Assembly: GCA_018831055.1 (NCBI GenBank)
Contig: JAHJRE010000111.1
Coordinates: 1-37,594, forward strand
Direction: 5' to 3'
DNA: 37,594 nucleotides
Source: Bacteroidota bacterium
GTDB lineage: Bacteria > Bacteroidota > Bacteroidia > Bacteroidales > B18-G4
Below, in pieces: positions 14,744 to 31,195 of the stretch. Both the position numbers and the translations under genes were made by a program. Positions within the stretch are counted from its first letter, which is position 1; each line of letters opens with the position of its first letter. The notes under the pieces were generated by a model that was given only the letters and a program-made list of their open reading frames with translations, searched no databases and was not told where the DNA came from.

Positions 14744-14789
14744 TATTCATTATTCATTATTCATTGTTCATTGTTCATTGTTCATTATT
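14741..14789. repeat. Heptamer array CATTRTT x7 between the Crp/Fnr and AKR genes
   Basis: Seven consecutive copies: CATTATT three times, CATTGTT three times, CATTATT once. On the coding (minus) strand each unit carries an ATG. The array includes the stop codon of the regulator gene (14785-14787, overlapping an ATG) and ends in the start codon of the aldo/keto reductase gene. Confidence 0.95.
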
Positions 14790-15465
14790 CCTGGTTCCCT
14801 CTCAACATCAAATTCAACCCCTTCCTGTCCAATATCCGTATCTCCCTTCTCTGCAACTCAATGATCCCTTCCCTGTCGAGTTCACCCATTGTTCTGGCCA
14901 GGGAAGGCCGTGTCACTCCAAACAGGTCCGCCAGGCTTTGTTGCGAATGTGGGATGGTAACCATTTCCTTATCTTTCCCGGCAAGGTTCAGCAGGTATTG
15001 AGCGATCTTTTCCCGGATGGTCTTGAAAGAAAGAAACTTGATCTTCATCGACAGGAACTGTGCCCGGGTGGAGATCATATTCAGGAAGTTCTCCAGGAAT
15101 ACCGGGCTGATCTGAAACATTTGGATCACCGAAGCTCGTGGTATCATCAGTATAGTAACCTTTTGATTAGCCACAATGTTCACCGGAAGCTTACGGTGCT
15201 GGCCAAACAAAAATGCCGAAGCCACCGGGCTGGGTGCTGTCATATCCTCTATTTTGATCGTTTTTCCTGAAAAATCGATCATATCACCCCTCACACTGCC
15301 TTCCAGAACAACATACAGAAAATCACAGGGATCATTGCTATGTGCGATCAGATCTTCCGCTTCATAAGAACGCATCTGGTAATGGACCTGGTTCATGATA
15401 TGAGCCAGCTCCCCTTGTGAAATACCCTGAAAAAGCGGACTCTGAGATAACACTTCAATATTCAT
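14785..15465 (-). CDS. Crp/Fnr family transcriptional regulator, HcpR-like by context
   Basis: A 226-residue regulator with an N-terminal cyclic-nucleotide-binding-type sensor domain (about 10-110), a long dimerisation helix (about 115-145) and a C-terminal winged helix with SQQSLADLFGVTRPSLARTMGEL (174-196). It has a single cysteine (47), so it cannot hold an FNR-type Fe-S cluster; haem or another ligand is possible. It is divergent from a ferredoxin-like gene and hcp, the arrangement of HcpR, a nitrosative-stress regulator known from anaerobes. A palindrome TGTAACA-TT-TGTTACA in the shared region is its likely site. The frame extends to 15492 but ATG 15465 gives the normal N-terminus, MNIEVLSQSPLF. 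The downstream partner is the aldo/keto reductase. Confidence 0.85.
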   Translation of the reverse strand: MNIEVLSQSPLFQGISQGELAHIMNQVHYQMRSYEAEDLIAHSNDPCDFLYVVLEGSVRGDMIDFSGKTIKIEDMTAPSPVASAFLFGQHRKLPVNIVANQKVTILMIPRASVIQMFQISPVFLENFLNMISTRAQFLSMKIKFLSFKTIREKIAQYLLNLAGKDKEMVTIPHSQQSLADLFGVTRPSLARTMGELDREGIIELQRREIRILDRKGLNLMLRGNQE

Positions 15466-15479
15466 CCGTACTTTTTTTG

Positions 15480-15487
15480 CAAAAATC
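15480..15487 (-). promoter_or_regulatory. Putative -7 element of the Crp/Fnr gene
   Basis: Minus-strand GATTTTTG differs from TAnnTTTG only in the first base and lies 15 bp before the ATG. The palindrome at 15505-15520 would be centred about 38 bp upstream of the predicted start, which allows autoregulation. Confidence 0.4.
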
Positions 15488-15504
15488 CGCATTTTTTGCT
15501 ATGT

Positions 15505-15520
15505 TGTAACATTTGTTACA
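15505..15520. promoter_or_regulatory. Crp/Fnr-type operator between regulator and ferredoxin-hcp operon
   Basis: TGTAACA-TT-TGTTACA is a perfect 16-bp palindrome with the half-site layout TGTnA-N6-TnACA of the Crp/Fnr family. Its centre is about 42 bp before the start point predicted from the -7 element at 15542-15549, which is the class II activator position; no -33 element is seen there, as expected for an activator-dependent promoter. Confidence 0.7.
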
Positions 15521-15541
15521 TTTTTTCAGGAAGGGCTGGGA

Positions 15542-15549
15542 TAATTTTG
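15542..15549 (+). promoter_or_regulatory. -7 promoter element of the ferredoxin-hcp operon
   Basis: TAATTTTG, a full match to TAnnTTTG, 25 bp before the ATG at 15575. Confidence 0.6.
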
Positions 15550-15574
15550 CCATGTAAAGACAAATTCCTGAAAA

Positions 15575-18974: not shown

Positions 18975-20492
18975 ATGAAACCATTGTACGAATCCGTCAC
19001 CAAGAAGCCCTGGCTGGGCTGGTCATTGTTCTTCGTCACCCTGATTGTTGTGTTTTTCCTGGGTCTGCTTGCTTCATCCATCATGGAAAGAAGAGCAGAA
19101 GCAATATTTGCTTATACACCGGTTGTTGAATACTCCCAATGGGAACCCAGGAACGATGTGTGGGGTGAAAACTTCCCGCATGAGTATAAATCCTACCTCG
19201 AAACATCGGATACAAGCTTCAAAAGCAAGTATAATGGGAATGCACCGATTGATATGCTGGAAGTGGATCCGCGCATGGTCGTGTTATGGGCAGGATATGG
19301 TTTTTCCAAAGATTACGAACAAGCCCGGGGGCATCATTATGCCATCACCGATATACGGAATACTCTCAGAACCGGGGCCCCGGTCAACGGACAGAAAAGC
19401 CCTATGCCCAACACCTGTTGGACATGTAAAAGCCCTGACGTACCCAGGGTCATGAATGAAATCGGCATTGCAGAGTTTTACAAGGGACATTGGGGAGAGA
19501 AAGGGGCGGAAATCGTAAATCCTATCGGTTGCGGCGACTGTCATAATGCCGAAACCATGAATCTACAAATATCCAGGCCAGCCCTTATTGAAGCATTTGA
19601 GCGCCAGGGACGCGATATCAGCAAGGCCAGTCACCAGGAGATGCGTTCCCTTGTTTGTGCCCAGTGTCACGTTGAATACTATTTCAACAAAAATATTGTG
19701 GATGGAGTAAATTATCTCGTTTTTCCATGGGACAACGGGATGACTATGGAAGCAGCGGAAGAATATTATGATAACATGGGATTCTCAGACTGGACACATG
19801 CCCTCAGCCGTGCGCCCATGCTAAAAGCTCAGCATCCTGGATATGAGGTTTACCTCACCGGAACCCATGCCAGCCGTGGTGTATCCTGTGCCGACTGCCA
19901 TATGCCTTATATGAGCGTGGGTGGACAAAAATATACCGACCACCACATCCAAAGCCCCCTCAACAATGTGAACAATTCCTGCCAGGTATGCCACCGGGAA
20001 GAAACCGAACGACTCATTGCCGATGTTTATTCCCGCCAGGATAAGATCATCGAAAACCGCGACAAACTGGAAGAGCTCCTCGTCAGAGCACACGTCGAAG
20101 CTAAAGAAGCATGGGATATCGGAGCAAACGACGAACAAATGAAACCCTGGCTCAAACTCATACGACAAGCCCAATGGCGCTGGGACTATGCCGCTGCCGG
20201 ACACGGAAACTCCTTCCATTCACCTGTCGAAACCGGCCGTATCATCACCCATGGCATCGATAAAGTGCAGGAAGCCCGAATAGGCCTCGCCAAGCTACTC
20301 ATCAGACTCGGACACTCCGGCGATGTACCCTACCCCGATATATCCACCAAAGCCAAAGCCCAGGCTTTCATCGGACTCGATATGGAAAAACTAAACAGCG
20401 AAAAACAGGAATTCCTGGAAAAAGTAGTACCCGAATGGCAAAAACAAGCCGCCGAAAGAGAAGAAACCTATGAGGTGGCGTATAGGAAATAA
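18975..20492 (+). CDS. nrfA: Pentahaem cytochrome c nitrite reductase NrfA
   Basis: The 505-residue protein catalyses six-electron reduction of nitrite to ammonium in the periplasm. The active-site haem is bound by the special CxxCK motif CWTCK (148-152); four further CxxCH motifs are at 186-190, 228-232, 305-309 and 336-340. Catalytic Tyr235 (CHVEYY) and His287 (KAQHPGYE) are present, as are the calcium-site residues Glu234, Lys284 and Gln286. The N-terminal helix (13-34) may stay uncleaved as an anchor. It forms the NrfHA complex with the preceding gene. A strong hairpin with a T-rich tail lies 174 bp after the stop. Confidence 0.97.
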   Translation: MKPLYESVTKKPWLGWSLFFVTLIVVFFLGLLASSIMERRAEAIFAYTPVVEYSQWEPRNDVWGENFPHEYKSYLETSDTSFKSKYNGNAPIDMLEVDPRMVVLWAGYGFSKDYEQARGHHYAITDIRNTLRTGAPVNGQKSPMPNTCWTCKSPDVPRVMNEIGIAEFYKGHWGEKGAEIVNPIGCGDCHNAETMNLQISRPALIEAFERQGRDISKASHQEMRSLVCAQCHVEYYFNKNIVDGVNYLVFPWDNGMTMEAAEEYYDNMGFSDWTHALSRAPMLKAQHPGYEVYLTGTHASRGVSCADCHMPYMSVGGQKYTDHHIQSPLNNVNNSCQVCHREETERLIADVYSRQDKIIENRDKLEELLVRAHVEAKEAWDIGANDEQMKPWLKLIRQAQWRWDYAAAGHGNSFHSPVETGRIITHGIDKVQEARIGLAKLLIRLGHSGDVPYPDISTKAKAQAFIGLDMEKLNSEKQEFLEKVVPEWQKQAAEREETYEVAYRK

Positions 20493-20546
20493 AATGATCA
20501 CATAGTAAATTTGGAGCAAAGAAAGCAGGTTGTAGGGAGAAGGGAA

Positions 20547-20570
20547 CAGGTTGCAGGTTGCAGGTTGCAG
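20547..20570. repeat. Heptamer repeat CAGGTTG x3.4
   Basis: Three exact consecutive CAGGTTG units and a partial fourth, 55 bp downstream of nrfA. It opens the 770-bp repeat mosaic 20493-21263, which holds no credible gene. Confidence 0.85.
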
Positions 20571-20640
20571 GGGGGATGTCCCGGCTTTCGCCGGGATGAC
20601 GGGATTGAGAGATCCCGCTTTCGCTTCGCTCAGCGGGATG
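20570..20640. repeat. Dispersed palindromic repeats of the GTCATCCCG type
   Basis: Two imperfect palindromes adjoin: TCCCGGCTTTCGCCGGGA and GATCCCGC...GCGGGATGAC. They belong to the same class as the array at 20759-20998 but in mixed orientation. Confidence 0.75.
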
Positions 20641-20665
20641 ACGACCTCCCGTAGGATTAGAAAGT

Positions 20666-20706
20666 GGCGGGCGGCGGGCTTCGCCCGCCGCCCGCCCTTT
20701 TATTTT
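20666..20706 (+). terminator. Strong GC hairpin, probable nrfHA terminator
   Basis: A perfect 14-bp stem of only G and C pairs (20666-20679 with 20683-20696) closes a 3-base TTC loop and is followed by CTTTTATTTT. It fits a Rho-independent terminator for the nrf operon; it may also be a repeat element, as it is embedded in repeats. Confidence 0.65.
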
Positions 20707-20758
20707 AGGAGCCCCGCCGTCATCCCGGCGTAAGCCGGGATCCATTATATCTCCCCCT

Positions 20759-20998
20759 GTCATCCCGACGAAAGTCGGGACATCCCGACGTAAGCCCGTC
20801 ATCCCGACGTAAGTCGGGACATCCCGACGTAAGCCCGTCATCCCGACGTAAGCCGGGACATCCTGACGTAAGCCCGTCATCCCGACGTAAGCCGGGACAT
20901 CCCAACGTAAGCCCGTCATCCCGACGAAAGTCGGGACATCCCGACATAAGCCCGTCATCCCGACGAAAGTCGGGACATCCCGACGTATGCCGGGACAT
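20759..20998. repeat. 39-bp tandem array, six units (GTCATCCCGACG...)
   Basis: GTCATCCCGACG words begin at 20759, 20798, 20837, 20876, 20915 and 20954, so the period is exactly 39 bp. Each unit holds a CCCGACNNAAGTCGGG-type palindrome plus a half. A single related unit precedes at 20718-20746. Because 39 is a multiple of three the array is open in several frames and gives repetitive translations of 13 residues per unit; these are not taken as proteins. Confidence 0.92.
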
Positions 20999-21002
20999 GT
21001 CT

Positions 21003-21044
21003 CCTGCAACCTGTAACTTGTTGCCTGTTTCCCTTTCCCTTTTT
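21003..21044. repeat. 7-bp-period repeat (CCTGYAA)
   Basis: CCTGCAA, CCTGTAA, CTTGTTG, CCTGTTT, CCCTTTC, CCTTTTT follow in 7-bp register at the right end of the repeat mosaic. From 21045 to 21263 the sequence is A/T-rich with a promoter and nothing else recognisable. Confidence 0.65.
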
Positions 21045-21108
21045 CCCATTTCATTTTTTCTTGATCTCTTTCCTGATTTTCCTAAGTATTTCCCGTAAAT
21101 GCGCAACC

Positions 21109-26346: not shown

Positions 26347-27699
26347 TTACATCAAAAAACTCATTAATATCCCCGCTGCCACTGCAGAGCCAATCACTCC
26401 GGCCACATTGGGTGCCATGGCGTGCATCAGAAGATGATTGGATGGGTCGGCTTTTAATCCCTCATTCTGCACTACCCTTGCACTGTCAGGTACTGCCGAT
26501 ACACCGGCGGCTCCCACCAGAGGATTGATCTTGTTGTGTGAGGGAAGGAAAAGATTCATCACCTTGGCAAAGATAATGCCCCCGGCGGTGGCGACCATGA
26601 ATGACAATGCGCCAAGCACAAAAATCAGAATAGATTGTGATGTGATGAACACATCCGCTTGTGTTGATGCTCCTACCGTCAATCCCAATACAATCGTAAC
26701 GATATCAATCAGAGAATTTTTCGCGGTATCGGCCAGCCTGCGGGTCACACCGCTTTCTTTCAGGATGTTGCCAAAAAACAACATCCCCAGAAGTGGCAAT
26801 GCACCGGGAGAAATGAAGGTAGTAAGTATCAAACCTACAATAGGGAAAGATATCTTTTCAATCTTCGATACAGATCGCGGTGGTTTCATCCTGATCACCC
26901 TTTCCCTTTTGCTGGTAAGCAATCGCATGATGGGTGGTTGTATCACCGGAACCAGCGCCATATATGAATAAGCTGCGATCGCGATGGGTCCTATCAGGTT
27001 CGCGGTCTGTATGCCGTTAACAATGCCTCCGTTGGCCAGCTTGGAAGAAAGAAAGATAGCCGTGGGACCGTCGGCACCCCCGATAATACCTATGGACGCC
27101 GCTTCCGGCATGTTAAAACCCAATATCAACGCTCCCAGAAGGGTAAGAAAGATACCGACCTGTGCAGCGGCTCCAAGCAAAACAAGCCTCGGGCTGGATA
27201 TCAGCGAGGAGAAGTCCGTCATGGCCCCAATACCCAGAAAGATCAAAGGAGGATAAATACCCTTGGTAACTCCGTAGTACAGGTAATTCAGAACGCTCCC
27301 ATCCTGGTAGATCCCTAACTGCAGATTGATGCCCGGCGCCTGGAAGAAAGGAACATTCCCGATGATGATCCCTGTACCGATTGGTATCAGGAGCAATGGC
27401 TCATAATCATATCGTATCGCCAAAAATATGAAGATCAGACCCACCAGGATCATCACGAAATGCCCCGGTGTGGCATTAGCAAAACCCGTGAAACTGATGA
27501 ATTTCCTGACCCCGTCCATAGGGGAAAATCCCTGTGTTGTTGCAGACCTCGTTTGTTCAGCAGATCCGTTATCCACCACCGATTCAGTGACAGATACCGT
27601 ATCCTGTACCTGCAGCGAATCTCCCTGCACCACAAGTGCATTCAATACAGCAAGGATGGCTAAAATTACAAGTATGGTTAACGCTTTGCGGACTGGCAT
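26347..27699 (-). CDS. oadB: Na+-translocating decarboxylase beta subunit
   Basis: A 450-residue polytopic membrane protein with the conserved OadB/MmdB/GcdB features: GGADGPTAIF with Asp210, the matching Asp of the Na+ pathway, YSYMALVP (244-251), and NPLVGAAGVSAVPDSAR (392-408) with the family's Asn, Ser and Arg. It has an N-terminal extension of about 75 residues with its own hydrophobic helix (7-24) and a polar linker. It couples decarboxylation of carboxybiotin to export of sodium ions across the cytoplasmic membrane. It is the last gene of the operon, three bases behind the biotin carrier gene. The adjacent mmdA and mce genes mark the complex as methylmalonyl-CoA decarboxylase rather than oxaloacetate decarboxylase. 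Confidence 0.93.
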   Translation of the reverse strand: MPVRKALTILVILAILAVLNALVVQGDSLQVQDTVSVTESVVDNGSAEQTRSATTQGFSPMDGVRKFISFTGFANATPGHFVMILVGLIFIFLAIRYDYEPLLLIPIGTGIIIGNVPFFQAPGINLQLGIYQDGSVLNYLYYGVTKGIYPPLIFLGIGAMTDFSSLISSPRLVLLGAAAQVGIFLTLLGALILGFNMPEAASIGIIGGADGPTAIFLSSKLANGGIVNGIQTANLIGPIAIAAYSYMALVPVIQPPIMRLLTSKRERVIRMKPPRSVSKIEKISFPIVGLILTTFISPGALPLLGMLFFGNILKESGVTRRLADTAKNSLIDIVTIVLGLTVGASTQADVFITSQSILIFVLGALSFMVATAGGIIFAKVMNLFLPSHNKINPLVGAAGVSAVPDSARVVQNEGLKADPSNHLLMHAMAPNVAGVIGSAVAAGILMSFLM

Positions 27700-27702
27700 G
27701 GT

Positions 27703-28125
27703 TTATTCAATTTCTAAGAGTATATCGTCCTGTAATACATTCTGCCCGGGAGTAACCTTTATAGACCTGATGGTGCCGTCTTTTTCGGCCAGGATATTGT
27801 TCTCCATTTTCATGGCCTCATAAATCAGCAATTTATCTCCTTTGGCAACTTTATCGCCCGGTTTTACCAGGATATGCATGATAGTCCCGGGAAGTGGTGC
27901 CTTCACCCTGAAGAGCGCGACTTCATCCTTTTTGATCTCACCGGCTCCCTTTTCTAAAACCACGGGCTTACGCACCAGCTTTGGCGTCTTGGTCTCACTG
28001 ACCTCGCGAAGCAGCTCCACTTCATAAACCGTCCCGTTTACTTCAATCTCTGCATAATTACCCTCCAGGCTCTTGACCTCCACCTCATAATCATGTCCAC
28101 GTATGGAAAACTTGAAACGTTTCAT
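27703..28125 (-). CDS. Biotin carboxyl carrier subunit of the decarboxylase
   Basis: A 140-residue protein with an N-terminal domain (1-45), a linker, and a C-terminal biotinyl domain (about 72-140) with the biotinylation motif EAMKMEN, Lys106 carrying the cofactor. It shuttles the carboxyl group from the carboxyltransferase MmdA to the membrane beta subunit. The linker is short and charged, not the long Ala/Pro-rich type. It lies between the gamma and beta subunit genes with gaps of 4 and 3 bp. Confidence 0.93.
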   Translation of the reverse strand: MKRFKFSIRGHDYEVEVKSLEGNYAEIEVNGTVYEVELLREVSETKTPKLVRKPVVLEKGAGEIKKDEVALFRVKAPLPGTIMHILVKPGDKVAKGDKLLIYEAMKMENNILAEKDGTIRSIKVTPGQNVLQDDILLEIE

Positions 28126-28129
28126 ATAC

Positions 28130-28492
28130 TTATTTCTTAAAATTTCTTACACCGTATATCTTTGAACTCCATGGAGAATACATCCGTGATACCCTTTTAA
28201 TGGTAATTACTTTGCTTTCTTCATCATGAAGCATATACGTCATATACAAAGCCGTGCTGATAGCTGCGATCACGTCTCCTGAAATAAAAATCTCCTCGCA
28301 ACATTCGTCCACCCTGATGCCCCGCCTCATAAGCTTTTGACGGATCTGCAATTTGTATGCCTTGGCAATATATGTAAACACGAGGTATAACACTACCAGG
28401 GCCAGGAAAACCGTCACATACCCCACAACGGCAATGATCAGCCCCTGTTCCATGATCGCCCCGAAATCTATTCCTGCATCAAGAATAATCAT
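28130..28492 (-). CDS. oadG: Decarboxylase gamma subunit, OadG family
   Basis: A 120-residue protein with one membrane helix (about 17-44) and a cytoplasmic domain, the plan of OadG/MmdD subunits, which stabilise the decarboxylase complex and link the carboxyltransferase to the membrane part. The sequence is weakly conserved in this family; the assignment rests on the helix, the size and its place directly after mmdA (gap 9 bp) and before the biotin carrier. Confidence 0.8.
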   Translation of the reverse strand: MIILDAGIDFGAIMEQGLIIAVVGYVTVFLALVVLYLVFTYIAKAYKLQIRQKLMRRGIRVDECCEEIFISGDVIAAISTALYMTYMLHDEESKVITIKRVSRMYSPWSSKIYGVRNFKK

Positions 28493-28501
28493 ATTAACTA
28501 A

Positions 28502-30061
28502 TTATAAAGGTATATTACCATGTTTTTTGAGAGGATTGACTTCCTTCTTTGTAGCAAGGACCCTCAGTGCCCTGATGATCCGGAATCGCGTATTACGGGG
28601 TTCGATGATATCGTCGATATACCCGTAACGGGCTGCTTCATAAGGATTGGCAAATTTATCCTTATATTCCTGTTCCTTGCGCTGTACAAAAGCACTCCTT
28701 TCTTCAGGATCCTCAATCTCTTTAATGTTTTTACCTTCCAGGATCTCAACGGCGCCGGCAGGACCCATAACCGCTATCTCAGCCGATGGCCAGGCATAAT
28801 TGATATCACCCCTGAGCTGCTTTGAACTCATCACATCATGCGCTCCACCATATGATTTTCGCAATGTGATGGTGATCTTGGGAACAGTAGCTTCGCCATA
28901 AGCAAACATCAGCTTGGCGCCATGAATGATAATACCCCCGTATTCCTGAGTGCTGCCGGGAAGAAAACCGGGTACGTCAACCAAAGTGATAATGGGAATG
29001 TTGAAGGCATCGCAAAAACGTACAAAACGGGCTGCCTTCCTGGAGGCATTGATGTCGAGCACACCGGCCAGGAAATTCGGCTGATTGGCCACTATACCTA
29101 CCGGCATACCATCGAAACGGGCAAATCCGGTTATGATATTCCGGGCATAGTTACGCTGTATCTCAAGGAACTCCGCTTCATCCACGATGGCATGGATAAT
29201 ATCCAGCACATCATAGGGTTTGTTTGGATCAGCAGGTATGATCTCGTTCAGATAATCTTCCAGACGGTTGATCGGATCATTGCATTCCACCACGGGAGGA
29301 TCCTCAAGATTGTTTTGCGGAAGATAACTCAACAGTTTACGAATCAGCATGATCCCTTCTTTTTCGTCCTCCGCAATGAAATGAGCCACACCGGATTTCT
29401 TACCATGCACCTCTGCACCTCCCAGATCCTCAACGCTGATTTCCTCACCGGTAACGGTTTTGGTAACTTTCGGACCGGTAACGAACATGTAACTGTTCTT
29501 CTCGCTCATAATGATAAAATCGGTGAGAGCAGGCGAGTAAACAGCTCCGCCGGCACAGGGTCCGAAAATTGCGGATATCTGCGGAATAAGGCCGGAAGCC
29601 AGAATGTTCCGTTCAAAGATCTCAGCATAACCGGCCAGCGATCTCACTCCTTCCTGTATCCTTGCTCCTCCACTGTCGTTGATCCCGATCAGGGGAGCAC
29701 CAACCTTCATGGCCTGGTCCATCACCTTACAGATCTTCAGTGCAAAGGTCTCTGAAAGAGATCCGCCAAATACCGTGAAATCCTGGGAAAAAACATAAAC
29801 CACCCTTCCATCAATGGTGCCGTGACCGGTTACTACCCCATCGGAAAGGATTTGCTTGTCGGCCAGCCCGAAATCCGTTGTCCTGTGCGTCATGAACATG
29901 TCGTATTCCTCAAAGGAACCGTCGTCAAGCAACAATTCCAGACGCTCTCTCGCTGTCAGCTTCCCTTGCTGATGCTGGGCTTCAATGCGCTTTGGGCCTC
30001 CACCCATTTTTGCTTCTGCCCTCAAATCCAGCAAACGCTTGATCTTGTCTTCTATCGCCAT
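28502..30061 (-). CDS. mmdA: Methylmalonyl-CoA decarboxylase alpha subunit (carboxyltransferase)
   Basis: The 519-residue protein is a full-length biotin-dependent acyl-CoA carboxyltransferase with two crotonase-type halves. Typical features are [22 protein letters not shown] (N-half oxyanion region), [17 protein letters not shown], and [12 protein letters not shown] plus [11 protein letters not shown] in the C-half. It moves the carboxyl group of (S)-methylmalonyl-CoA to biotin, giving propionyl-CoA. The same fold serves propionyl-CoA carboxylase; the downstream Na+-pump subunits favour decarboxylase. In Bacteroidota this is the energy-conserving step of succinate-to-propionate fermentation. 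Confidence 0.93.
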
Positions 30062-30080
30062 GATATATAAATAATTGCGT

Positions 30081-30491
30081 TTATTTTTTCTTGTCTTCGC
30101 AAAATTCTGTCAATACCCCAAAGGTAGACTTCGGATGCAAAAAGGCTATATCAAGCCCCTCAGCACCTTTCCTGGGCTTCTCATCTATAAGCCTGACACC
30201 CTTTTTCTCCGCCTCCTGCAAACGCTCCTCCAGGTCTTTCACCGCGAAAGCTATATGATGTATGCCTTCCCCCCGCTTCTCAATGAACTTCCCGATAGGC
30301 CCCTCCGGATCCGTCGACTCCAGCAACTCCAGCTTCGTCTGCCCTACCTTGAAAAAAGCCGTTTTTACCTTCTGGTCAGTAACCTCCTCTATGGCATAAC
30401 ACCGTAAACCCAAAACATTCTCATAATAGGGTATTGCCTCGTCCAAATTCCTTACGGCAATACCAATATGTTCAATGTGAGATAGTTCCAT
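30081..30491 (-). CDS. mce: Methylmalonyl-CoA epimerase
   Basis: A 136-residue vicinal-oxygen-chelate enzyme. Metal-site candidates are His8 (HIEHIGIAV), Glu55 or nearby, His79 (GIHHIAF) and Glu129 (LTEF), matching the known epimerase. It converts (R)- to (S)-methylmalonyl-CoA, feeding MmdA 19 bp downstream. It is the first gene of the propionate operon; its promoter is overlapped by a Crp-type palindrome. Confidence 0.94.
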
Positions 30492-30502
30492 GTCAATAAT
30501 TG

Positions 30503-30522
30503 TTTGTGAAATTTTTCACAAA
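30503..30522. promoter_or_regulatory. Crp-type palindrome over the propionate operon start point
   Basis: A perfect palindrome of nine-base arms (TTTGTGAAA and TTTCACAAA) around a TT centre. The core is TGTGA-N6-TCACA, the classical Crp half-site layout, also known for HcpR in other anaerobes. It overlaps the end of the -7 element (30519-30526) and the predicted start point, a position for repression. It would also be a hairpin at the 5' end of the message. Confidence 0.6.
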
Positions 30523-30526
30523 AGTA
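30519..30526 (-). promoter_or_regulatory. -7 promoter element of the mce-oadB operon
   Basis: Minus-strand TACTTTTG, a full TAnnTTTG match, 27 bp before the mce ATG. Confidence 0.55.
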
Positions 30527-30633: not shown

Positions 30634-30701
30634 CACCCCTACGGGGTTCCGGAAAACGATTCGCGTCCATTATGCTACCGGAGGGGCGCCCCTACGGGGC
30701 T
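30634..30701. repeat. Paired palindromic repeat, second dispersed copy
   Basis: Homologue of the 67-bp element at 1754-1821 in the same orientation; the cores are again 53 bp apart (30635 and 30688) and the sequence between them is largely conserved, including GGAAAACG and GTGCTACCG/ATGCTACCG. Confidence 0.85.
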
Positions 30702-30766
30702 GGTTATTAGATAACGTTTTACAATAGCTTTATAATTGTGGAAAACAATATTCATATGATAAACCA

Positions 30767-31195
30767 AAGCCCTGTAGAGGCGTTTTTATTGCATAATGAT
30801 TGTCGTCACGTTATCCCAGGATCTATGGGTTAACACGAATTTCAATTTTATGATGTTAAGAACAAATATTTCGCCCCTACGGGGCTTCCATTCTGTTTGG
30901 TTCCCTTATTTCTATAAATATACCGCCCCTAAAGGGGCTGGGTTTATCAAGGTAATTAACTTTACCGCAAACAAATACAGAATAGGTTAATAATTGCAAT
31001 CCACCTTACAAGCCCCGTAGGGGCGGCATATTTATAGCATAATCAGCGACGATCGTGTTCCAAAGCCCCGTAGGGGCGACATATTGGTAGTAAAATGATC
31101 ACAGGTCACATCCCGAAGCCCCGTAGGGGCGACATATTTATAGAAAATAGGCGATGGCCCTGGTCCAAAGCCCCGTAGGGGCGGAATATTTTTAA
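30767..31195. repeat. Palindromic repeat array, 52/53-bp pitch, two orientations
   Basis: The core GCCCCGTAGGGGC recurs on the plus strand at 31010, 31063, 31116 and 31168 (pitch 53, 53, 52), each followed by a semi-conserved GACATATTTATAG-like stretch. In reverse orientation cores lie at 30873 and 30925 (pitch 52), and a degenerate unit is at 30767. The two halves face each other around 30940-31009. The bases between cores are partly alike, unlike CRISPR spacers. The 890-bp gap 30492-31384 contains no credible gene. Confidence 0.9.

Follow-up and report, generated by a model that had tools for sequence, protein, structure and literature searches.

The promoter of the sodium-pumping propionate operon in this genome carries a palindrome that is probably (we put the probability at roughly 0.78, judging from sequence) an operator for Rex, a repressor that responds to NAD(H) and whose NAD+-bound form would there repress mce, mmdA, oadG, the biotin carrier gene and oadB until NADH rises. 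In its short form, TGTGA-N6-TCACA, the palindrome would suit CRP as well as Rex, whereas its longer form, TTGTGAAN4TTCACAA, is the Rex consensus. Rex is preferred over a Crp/Fnr protein because both the sequence of the site and its natural variation fit Rex better, and because Rex co-occurs with the site. The original prediction of a Crp-type operator holds as far as an operator-like element on the propionate promoter is concerned, and is probably mistaken as to the Crp/Fnr family of the regulator.

The propionate operon and its promoter

Within the window (the whole stretch of 37,594 nucleotides that was analysed), mce, mmdA, an oadG-like gene, a biotin carrier gene and oadB follow one another in that order on the minus strand (Table 1). 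The palindrome, TTTGTGAAA-TT-TTTCACAAA at 30503-30522, comprises 20 bp with two perfect nine-base arms, in agreement with the TGTGA-N6-TCACA element originally described; the end at 30526 then assigned to it lies beyond the palindrome, which stops at 30522, the extra four bases being those that complete the -7 promoter element. The minus-strand sequence of the promoter is TACTTTTG-TGAAAAATTTCACAA (in a longer reading, TACTTTTGTGAAAAATTTCACAA), and the palindrome begins with the TTTG of TACTTTTG; the predicted overlap is borne out, since this TTTG is that of TAnnTTTG, the Bacteroidetes -7 consensus (PMC7366714). The 18-bp core is 12 nt distant from the ATG of mce, which starts at 30491.

Exact TGTGA-N6-TCACA occurs once in the window, at the mce palindrome, and matches with up to two mismatches are at chance level there (16, compared with 16.95 expected from shuffles). 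Perfect palindromes with 9-bp arms and spacers of 0-6 number six in the window, one pair of which overlaps; 40 first-order Markov sequences averaged 1.05 and never had more than 5. Taken alone, the window makes a moderate case that the palindrome is beyond chance; conservation is the stronger evidence. The gap upstream of the operon (30634-31190) contains repeated inverted units of the GCCCCGTAGGGGC type, four in direct order at a spacing of approximately 53 nt and others pointing the opposite way, which constitute a dispersed repeat.

Table 1. Positions in the window of the propionate operon, its promoter and predicted operator, and the Crp/Fnr-family gene with its adjoining palindrome.
Feature	Positions	Strand	Remarks
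Palindromic operator TTTGTGAAATTTTTCACAAA (predicted Rex site)	30503..30522	+ (strand of reading)	18-bp core 30504-30521, exact TTGTGAAN4TTCACAA
-7 promoter element TACTTTTG (TAnnTTTG)	30519..30526	-	TTTG common to element and operator
mce, methylmalonyl-CoA epimerase	30081..30491	-	TIGR03081, 160.4 bits, above cut-off of 114.95
mmdA, methylmalonyl-CoA decarboxylase alpha subunit	28502..30061	-	TIGR01117, 807.8 bits, below model cut-off of 998.8
oadG-like gamma subunit	28130..28492	-	PF04277, E 1.7e-4, below gathering score
Biotin carrier subunit	27703..28125	-	PF00364, E 4.3e-19
oadB/mmdB, sodium-translocating decarboxylase beta subunit	26347..27699	-	TIGR01109, 470.1 bits, above cut-off
Crp/Fnr-family regulator, HcpR2-like	14785..15492	-	HTH_Crp_2; near hcp, beside GTAACnnnnGTTAC palindrome
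Palindrome TGTAACATTTGTTACA, HcpR2-type motif, unlike mce operator	15505..15520	.	exact GTAACnnnnGTTAC match

Conservation of the site

When 250 nt upstream of each of 80 named mce loci were scanned for TTGTGAAN4TTCACAA with up to two mismatches, 16 loci had a match: 14 have it 12-24 nt from the ATG, two others have it at 54 and 193 nt, and the remaining 64 have none. When each upstream stretch was shuffled 100 times, no shuffle matched as well for any of the 14 loci. A strict pattern, TTGTKAAN4TTMACAA followed by an mce start, was found in 12 of 295 genomes of the order (Bacteroidales); a control with the spacer lengthened by one base, to five, was found in none of the 295. Among mce loci the flanks diverge while the palindrome is kept. 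TAnnTTTG shares its TTTG with the operator at all 12 strict mce sites, and for these four bases conservation of the operator is not separable from that of the -7 element. Comparison of 15 mce sites (the 14 loci and the window) revealed 12 substitutions, nine of which are G to T at half-site position 5 (TTGTGAA becoming TTGTTAA); because the set holds near relatives (L038 with L039, and L036 with L040) and L037 looks like the same organism as G054, the counts overstate independence. The findings support the view that the core promoter of the Na+-pumping propionate operon carries, in the palindrome, a conserved element resembling an operator.

The predicted Rex operator and the Rex protein

In a motif scan of the genome, a kind of check that the original prediction had proposed, the mce site is the only exact copy of TTGTGAAN4TTCACAA in the 4.19 Mb (G000), and none of the three one-mismatch sites is convincingly placed, one being more than 220 nt from the nearest starts (C16), one within a sigma-factor-like ORF (C195) and one downstream of an ORF (C47). 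With up to two mismatches allowed, the whole-genome scan returned 32 sites, against 15 for a reversed control.

The Rex consensus measured in Staphylococcus aureus is TTGTGAAW4TTCACAA (PMC2883068), and the 18-bp core of that operator is identical to the mce site, A/T-only spacer included; the mce site differs in belonging to another phylum, in its target, the mce-mmdA propionate operon, and in its overlap with TAnnTTTG. The clostridial Rex motif is TTGTTAANNNNTTAACAA (PMC8457756, PMC9600882), which differs at half-site position 5 (PMC8457756). It is toward this clostridial form that the Bacteroidales sites vary at that position, the window having the symmetric G form and many relatives having hybrids of the two halves.

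Contig C179 of the genome codes for a Rex protein (L001:1233-1928), in a frame of 231 aa from a TTG or 209 aa from the first ATG, with matches to PF06971 and PF02629 over the cut-offs, to the NCBIfam Rex subfamily (203.9 bits; cut-off 126) and to the solved structure 2VT2 (phmmer E 1.8e-36). The best Rex-like site at rex is the palindrome TTGTTAAATAAATAACAA (L001:1203), with 3 mismatches, just before the rex frame. The rex gene is downstream of a HypB-like ORF (hydrogenase nickel protein, named by eye; both within L001:45-1928).

In the Rex protein of T. maritima, Arg48 and Lys49 read bases, the first G and the A of the site are conserved, and the second G is contacted by Lys49 (PMC8836258). 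At the positions of T. maritima Arg48, Lys49 and Tyr64, the G000 protein has Arg, Arg (a conservative change) and Tyr, so that the DNA-reading residues are in place; at the minor-groove positions, Arg60 is replaced by Leu and Gly61 by Arg, the latter a departure of the wing from canonical Rex that counts against a Rex site. Thirteen Rex proteins were aligned: G004, a genome lacking the strict site, supplied one, and 11 site-bearing genomes supplied the other 12, G271 with two; the alignment leaves aside the second copies of G075, G106, G110, G209 and G222. Arg48 is kept and Arg occupies the Lys49 position in all 13, and the wing reads GTLR(K/R)GY in 12 (11 of the 12 from site-bearing genomes), compared with GKRGVGY in T. 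maritima. The second Rex copy of G271 (L230) is diverged, with the wing GNYRSGY, and PF06971 matches number two or three in several other genomes of the order.

Co-occurrence of the site with Rex

PF06971 was detected in 181 of the 295 genomes and in 11 of the 12 that bear the site, an association that is weak when PF06971 alone is considered (p 0.022) because Rex is common in the order. Among the good genomes only (n = 244), PF06971 is present in 10/10 site-bearing genomes and in 156/244 (p 0.010). Proteins closely related to the G000 Rex (E up to 1e-40) occur in 114 of the 295 genomes and again in 11 of the 12 site-bearing ones (Fisher p 1.7e-4) and, counted by family, in 7/7 families with the site as against 57/120 (p 0.004). 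G163, the only site-bearing genome in which no Rex was detected, is 76% complete. The mce site is limited to certain lineages, because 66 of the 80 named mce loci have no near-start site and 103 of the 114 genomes with close Rex relatives (counted regardless of the presence of mce) do not have the strict site; two named species, Alkalitalea saponilacus (L042) and Prolixibacter denitrificans (L107), likewise have mce loci without it.

Alternative explanations of the palindrome

The reader of the palindrome might instead be a CRP-like Crp/Fnr paralogue of the type seen at L186, whose recognition helix, SRESVSR, resembles the SRETVGR of E. coli CRP; the mce site does contain an exact TGTGA-N6-TCACA. 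Crp/Fnr proteins are no less widespread than Rex: six of the 12 site-bearing genomes have one with Arg180, and 11 have one in which residue 180 is Arg or Lys, a distribution that does not separate the two candidates; this spread, along with sites similar to that of mce beside Crp/Fnr genes in three genomes, constitutes the main points against Rex. In G000 (L183, contig C221) and G222 (L149), a Rex-like site separates a rhodanese-like lipoprotein gene from a Crp/Fnr gene, and in G001 (C37) a one-mismatch site precedes a Crp/Fnr gene of the Arg180 type; at these sites such a protein could be regulating its own gene. Five HTH_Crp_2 proteins of G000 exceed the cut-off, and the Crp/Fnr protein of its rhodanese pair has Thr at 180 (STESVIR).

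Arginine 185 of Crp/Fnr proteins reads the second G of TGTGA, which is part of the common core of Crp/Fnr sites, yet this is the base that takes 9/12 of the substitutions in the mce sites, with G to T the commonest change, so that the conservation of both Gs expected of a CRP site is not found. No recognition type is common to all 12 site-bearing genomes among the Crp/Fnr hits that were read (31 of 37), and the three Crp/Fnr proteins found in G106 have neither Arg nor Lys at 180. CRP-type activators sit near -41.5 or -61.5 and not on the start point; the palindrome, unlike them, is at the predicted start region. The global Crp of Bacteroides, BT4338, has another motif, the AT-rich palindrome TATGTTnTAnAACATA of a Crp-family protein (given as wwwTATGTTnTAnAACATAwww; PMC3878776), with the half-site TATGTT compared with TTGTGAA at mce. 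Weighing both sides, a CRP-like paralogue, above all one with Lys180, is a possible but unlikely regulator of mce.

Still less probable, and indeed very improbable, is that no regulator is involved, the left half being kept as promoter TAnnTTTG and the right half arising by chance or as a stem-loop of the transcript leader: the left half does overlap the -7 element, but the right half, TT(C/A)ACAA, recurs at fixed spacing in 14 named loci and 12 genomes and disappears when one base is added to the spacer, the flanks diverge, and the same element precedes other genes. This pure promoter explanation was set aside on the conservation of the right half at fixed spacing.

We give next to no weight to control of both hcp and the mce operon by the HcpR2-like Crp/Fnr protein of the window, which was originally predicted to tie propionate fermentation to nitrite or NO: it belongs to the Crp/Fnr family and has hcp and nrfHA nearby, but the palindrome adjoining its gene is an exact GTAACnnnnGTTAC, the HcpR2 motif (PMC1274295), which the mce palindrome does not contain, and its helix reads TRPSLAR, with Pro where CRP has Glu181 (alignment by eye). 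Because the adjoining palindrome has the HcpR2 motif and is unlike the mce site, this protein probably does not read the mce palindrome, and it was set aside as the mce controller, which leaves the proposed hcp and nitrite/NO link without support. HcpR2 regulons are predicted to consist of hcp alone in most Bacteroides (PMC1274295). Around TGTAACATTTGTTACA, at 15493-15574, the hcpR-like gene and a ferredoxin gene (followed by hcp, an nrfH-like gene and nrfA) diverge in an arrangement of the HcpR2 type. Beyond nrfA, the stretch at 20368-21106 translates as repeated 'RRDVPTFVGMTGL'-like units and is probably a repeat array and no gene.

Candidate members of a Rex regulon

A 19-mer version of the site, sought in G007, G008 and the 12 genomes that have the strict site, returned 31 places in these 14, against 1 for a reversed control; 13 of the sites (14 rows) are the mce site itself, by choice of genomes. 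Sixteen sites from nine genomes are not at mce, and 15 of these were looked at (one is without a locus): 14 lie before genes and one inside an ORF. Enzymes of central, fermentative or amino-acid metabolism follow 13 of the 15; another site is between rhodanese-like and Crp/Fnr genes, and the last is within a sigma-factor-like ORF. The targets assigned are ADP-forming acetate-CoA ligase (four genomes), malic enzyme, NqrA, glutamate dehydrogenase, aspartate aminotransferase (two), histidine ammonia-lyase (two), phosphate butyryltransferase and a threonine-dehydrogenase-like protein. One 110-aa fragment per enzyme was tested by HMM, and further copies and the rhodanese were named by eye; the threonine-dehydrogenase-like fragment gave only general sugar-epimerase-type matches, and the Crp/Fnr fragment gave none. 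The distances from site to start are 11 to 165 nt; because at several sites a second ORF starts on the other side, which gene counts as the target is in part the analyst's choice.

All 28 two-mismatch sites of G000 were inspected, and seven lie 14-102 nt before a plausible target, several of which may be due to chance because the reversed control gave 15 sites. The seven are associated with malic enzyme (14 nt), an aldehyde ferredoxin oxidoreductase-like gene (18 nt), a divergent pair of kbl and a threonine-dehydrogenase-like gene (25 and 144 nt), GlnA-like (41 nt), NuoE-like (61 nt) and proline-dehydrogenase-like (102 nt) genes, and the rhodanese-Crp/Fnr pair (23 and 157 nt). The others are mostly within ORFs or far from a start; the one at position 338 of the window, for example, is within the ORF at 310-1494.

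The candidate target set looks as an NADH-responsive regulon would. We lean towards the view that a set of Bacteroidales has a redox regulon of its own, with a wing-altered Rex and half-sites TTGT(G/T)AA, in which the NADH/NAD+ ratio would switch not only Na+-pumping propionate formation but also amino-acid fermentation, ADP-forming acetate-CoA ligase, malic enzyme, Nqr and glutamate dehydrogenase.

Probable redox control of propionate formation

Many Bacteroidota make propionate by the succinate/methylmalonyl-CoA route as one of their main products, and we know of no settled account of how the choice among succinate, propionate and acetate is made at the level of transcription. Rex is a known kind of regulator, and the mce operon is apparently an unreported target. 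The comparison of Rex regulons by Ravcheev et al. (2012) reportedly covers no Bacteroidetes. RegPrecise 3.0 includes a Bacteroidaceae collection (PMC3840689), and the titles and abstract openings of the literature matches listed contain no report of Rex control of a propionate operon in Bacteroidota.

Binding of Rex is promoted by NAD+ and abolished by NADH (PMC2883068, PMC8836258). On the mce promoter, Rex with NAD+ would occupy the -7 element and the start region, blocking RNA polymerase; as NADH builds up, Rex would be released and the epimerase and Na+-pumping decarboxylase would be made; and the succinate that results from NADH use could be converted to propionate, with a sodium gradient gained. 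Rex binding, repression, the NADH signal and this physiological logic are what we infer from the site, its variation and its company. One caution that follows for Bacteroidota is that sites of the form TGTGA-N6-TCACA are not necessarily Crp sites. If the Rex reading is true, the promoter of the Na+-pumping decarboxylase would be switched by the NADH/NAD+ ratio through its operator, and the cell probably adjusts propionate fermentation to its redox balance.
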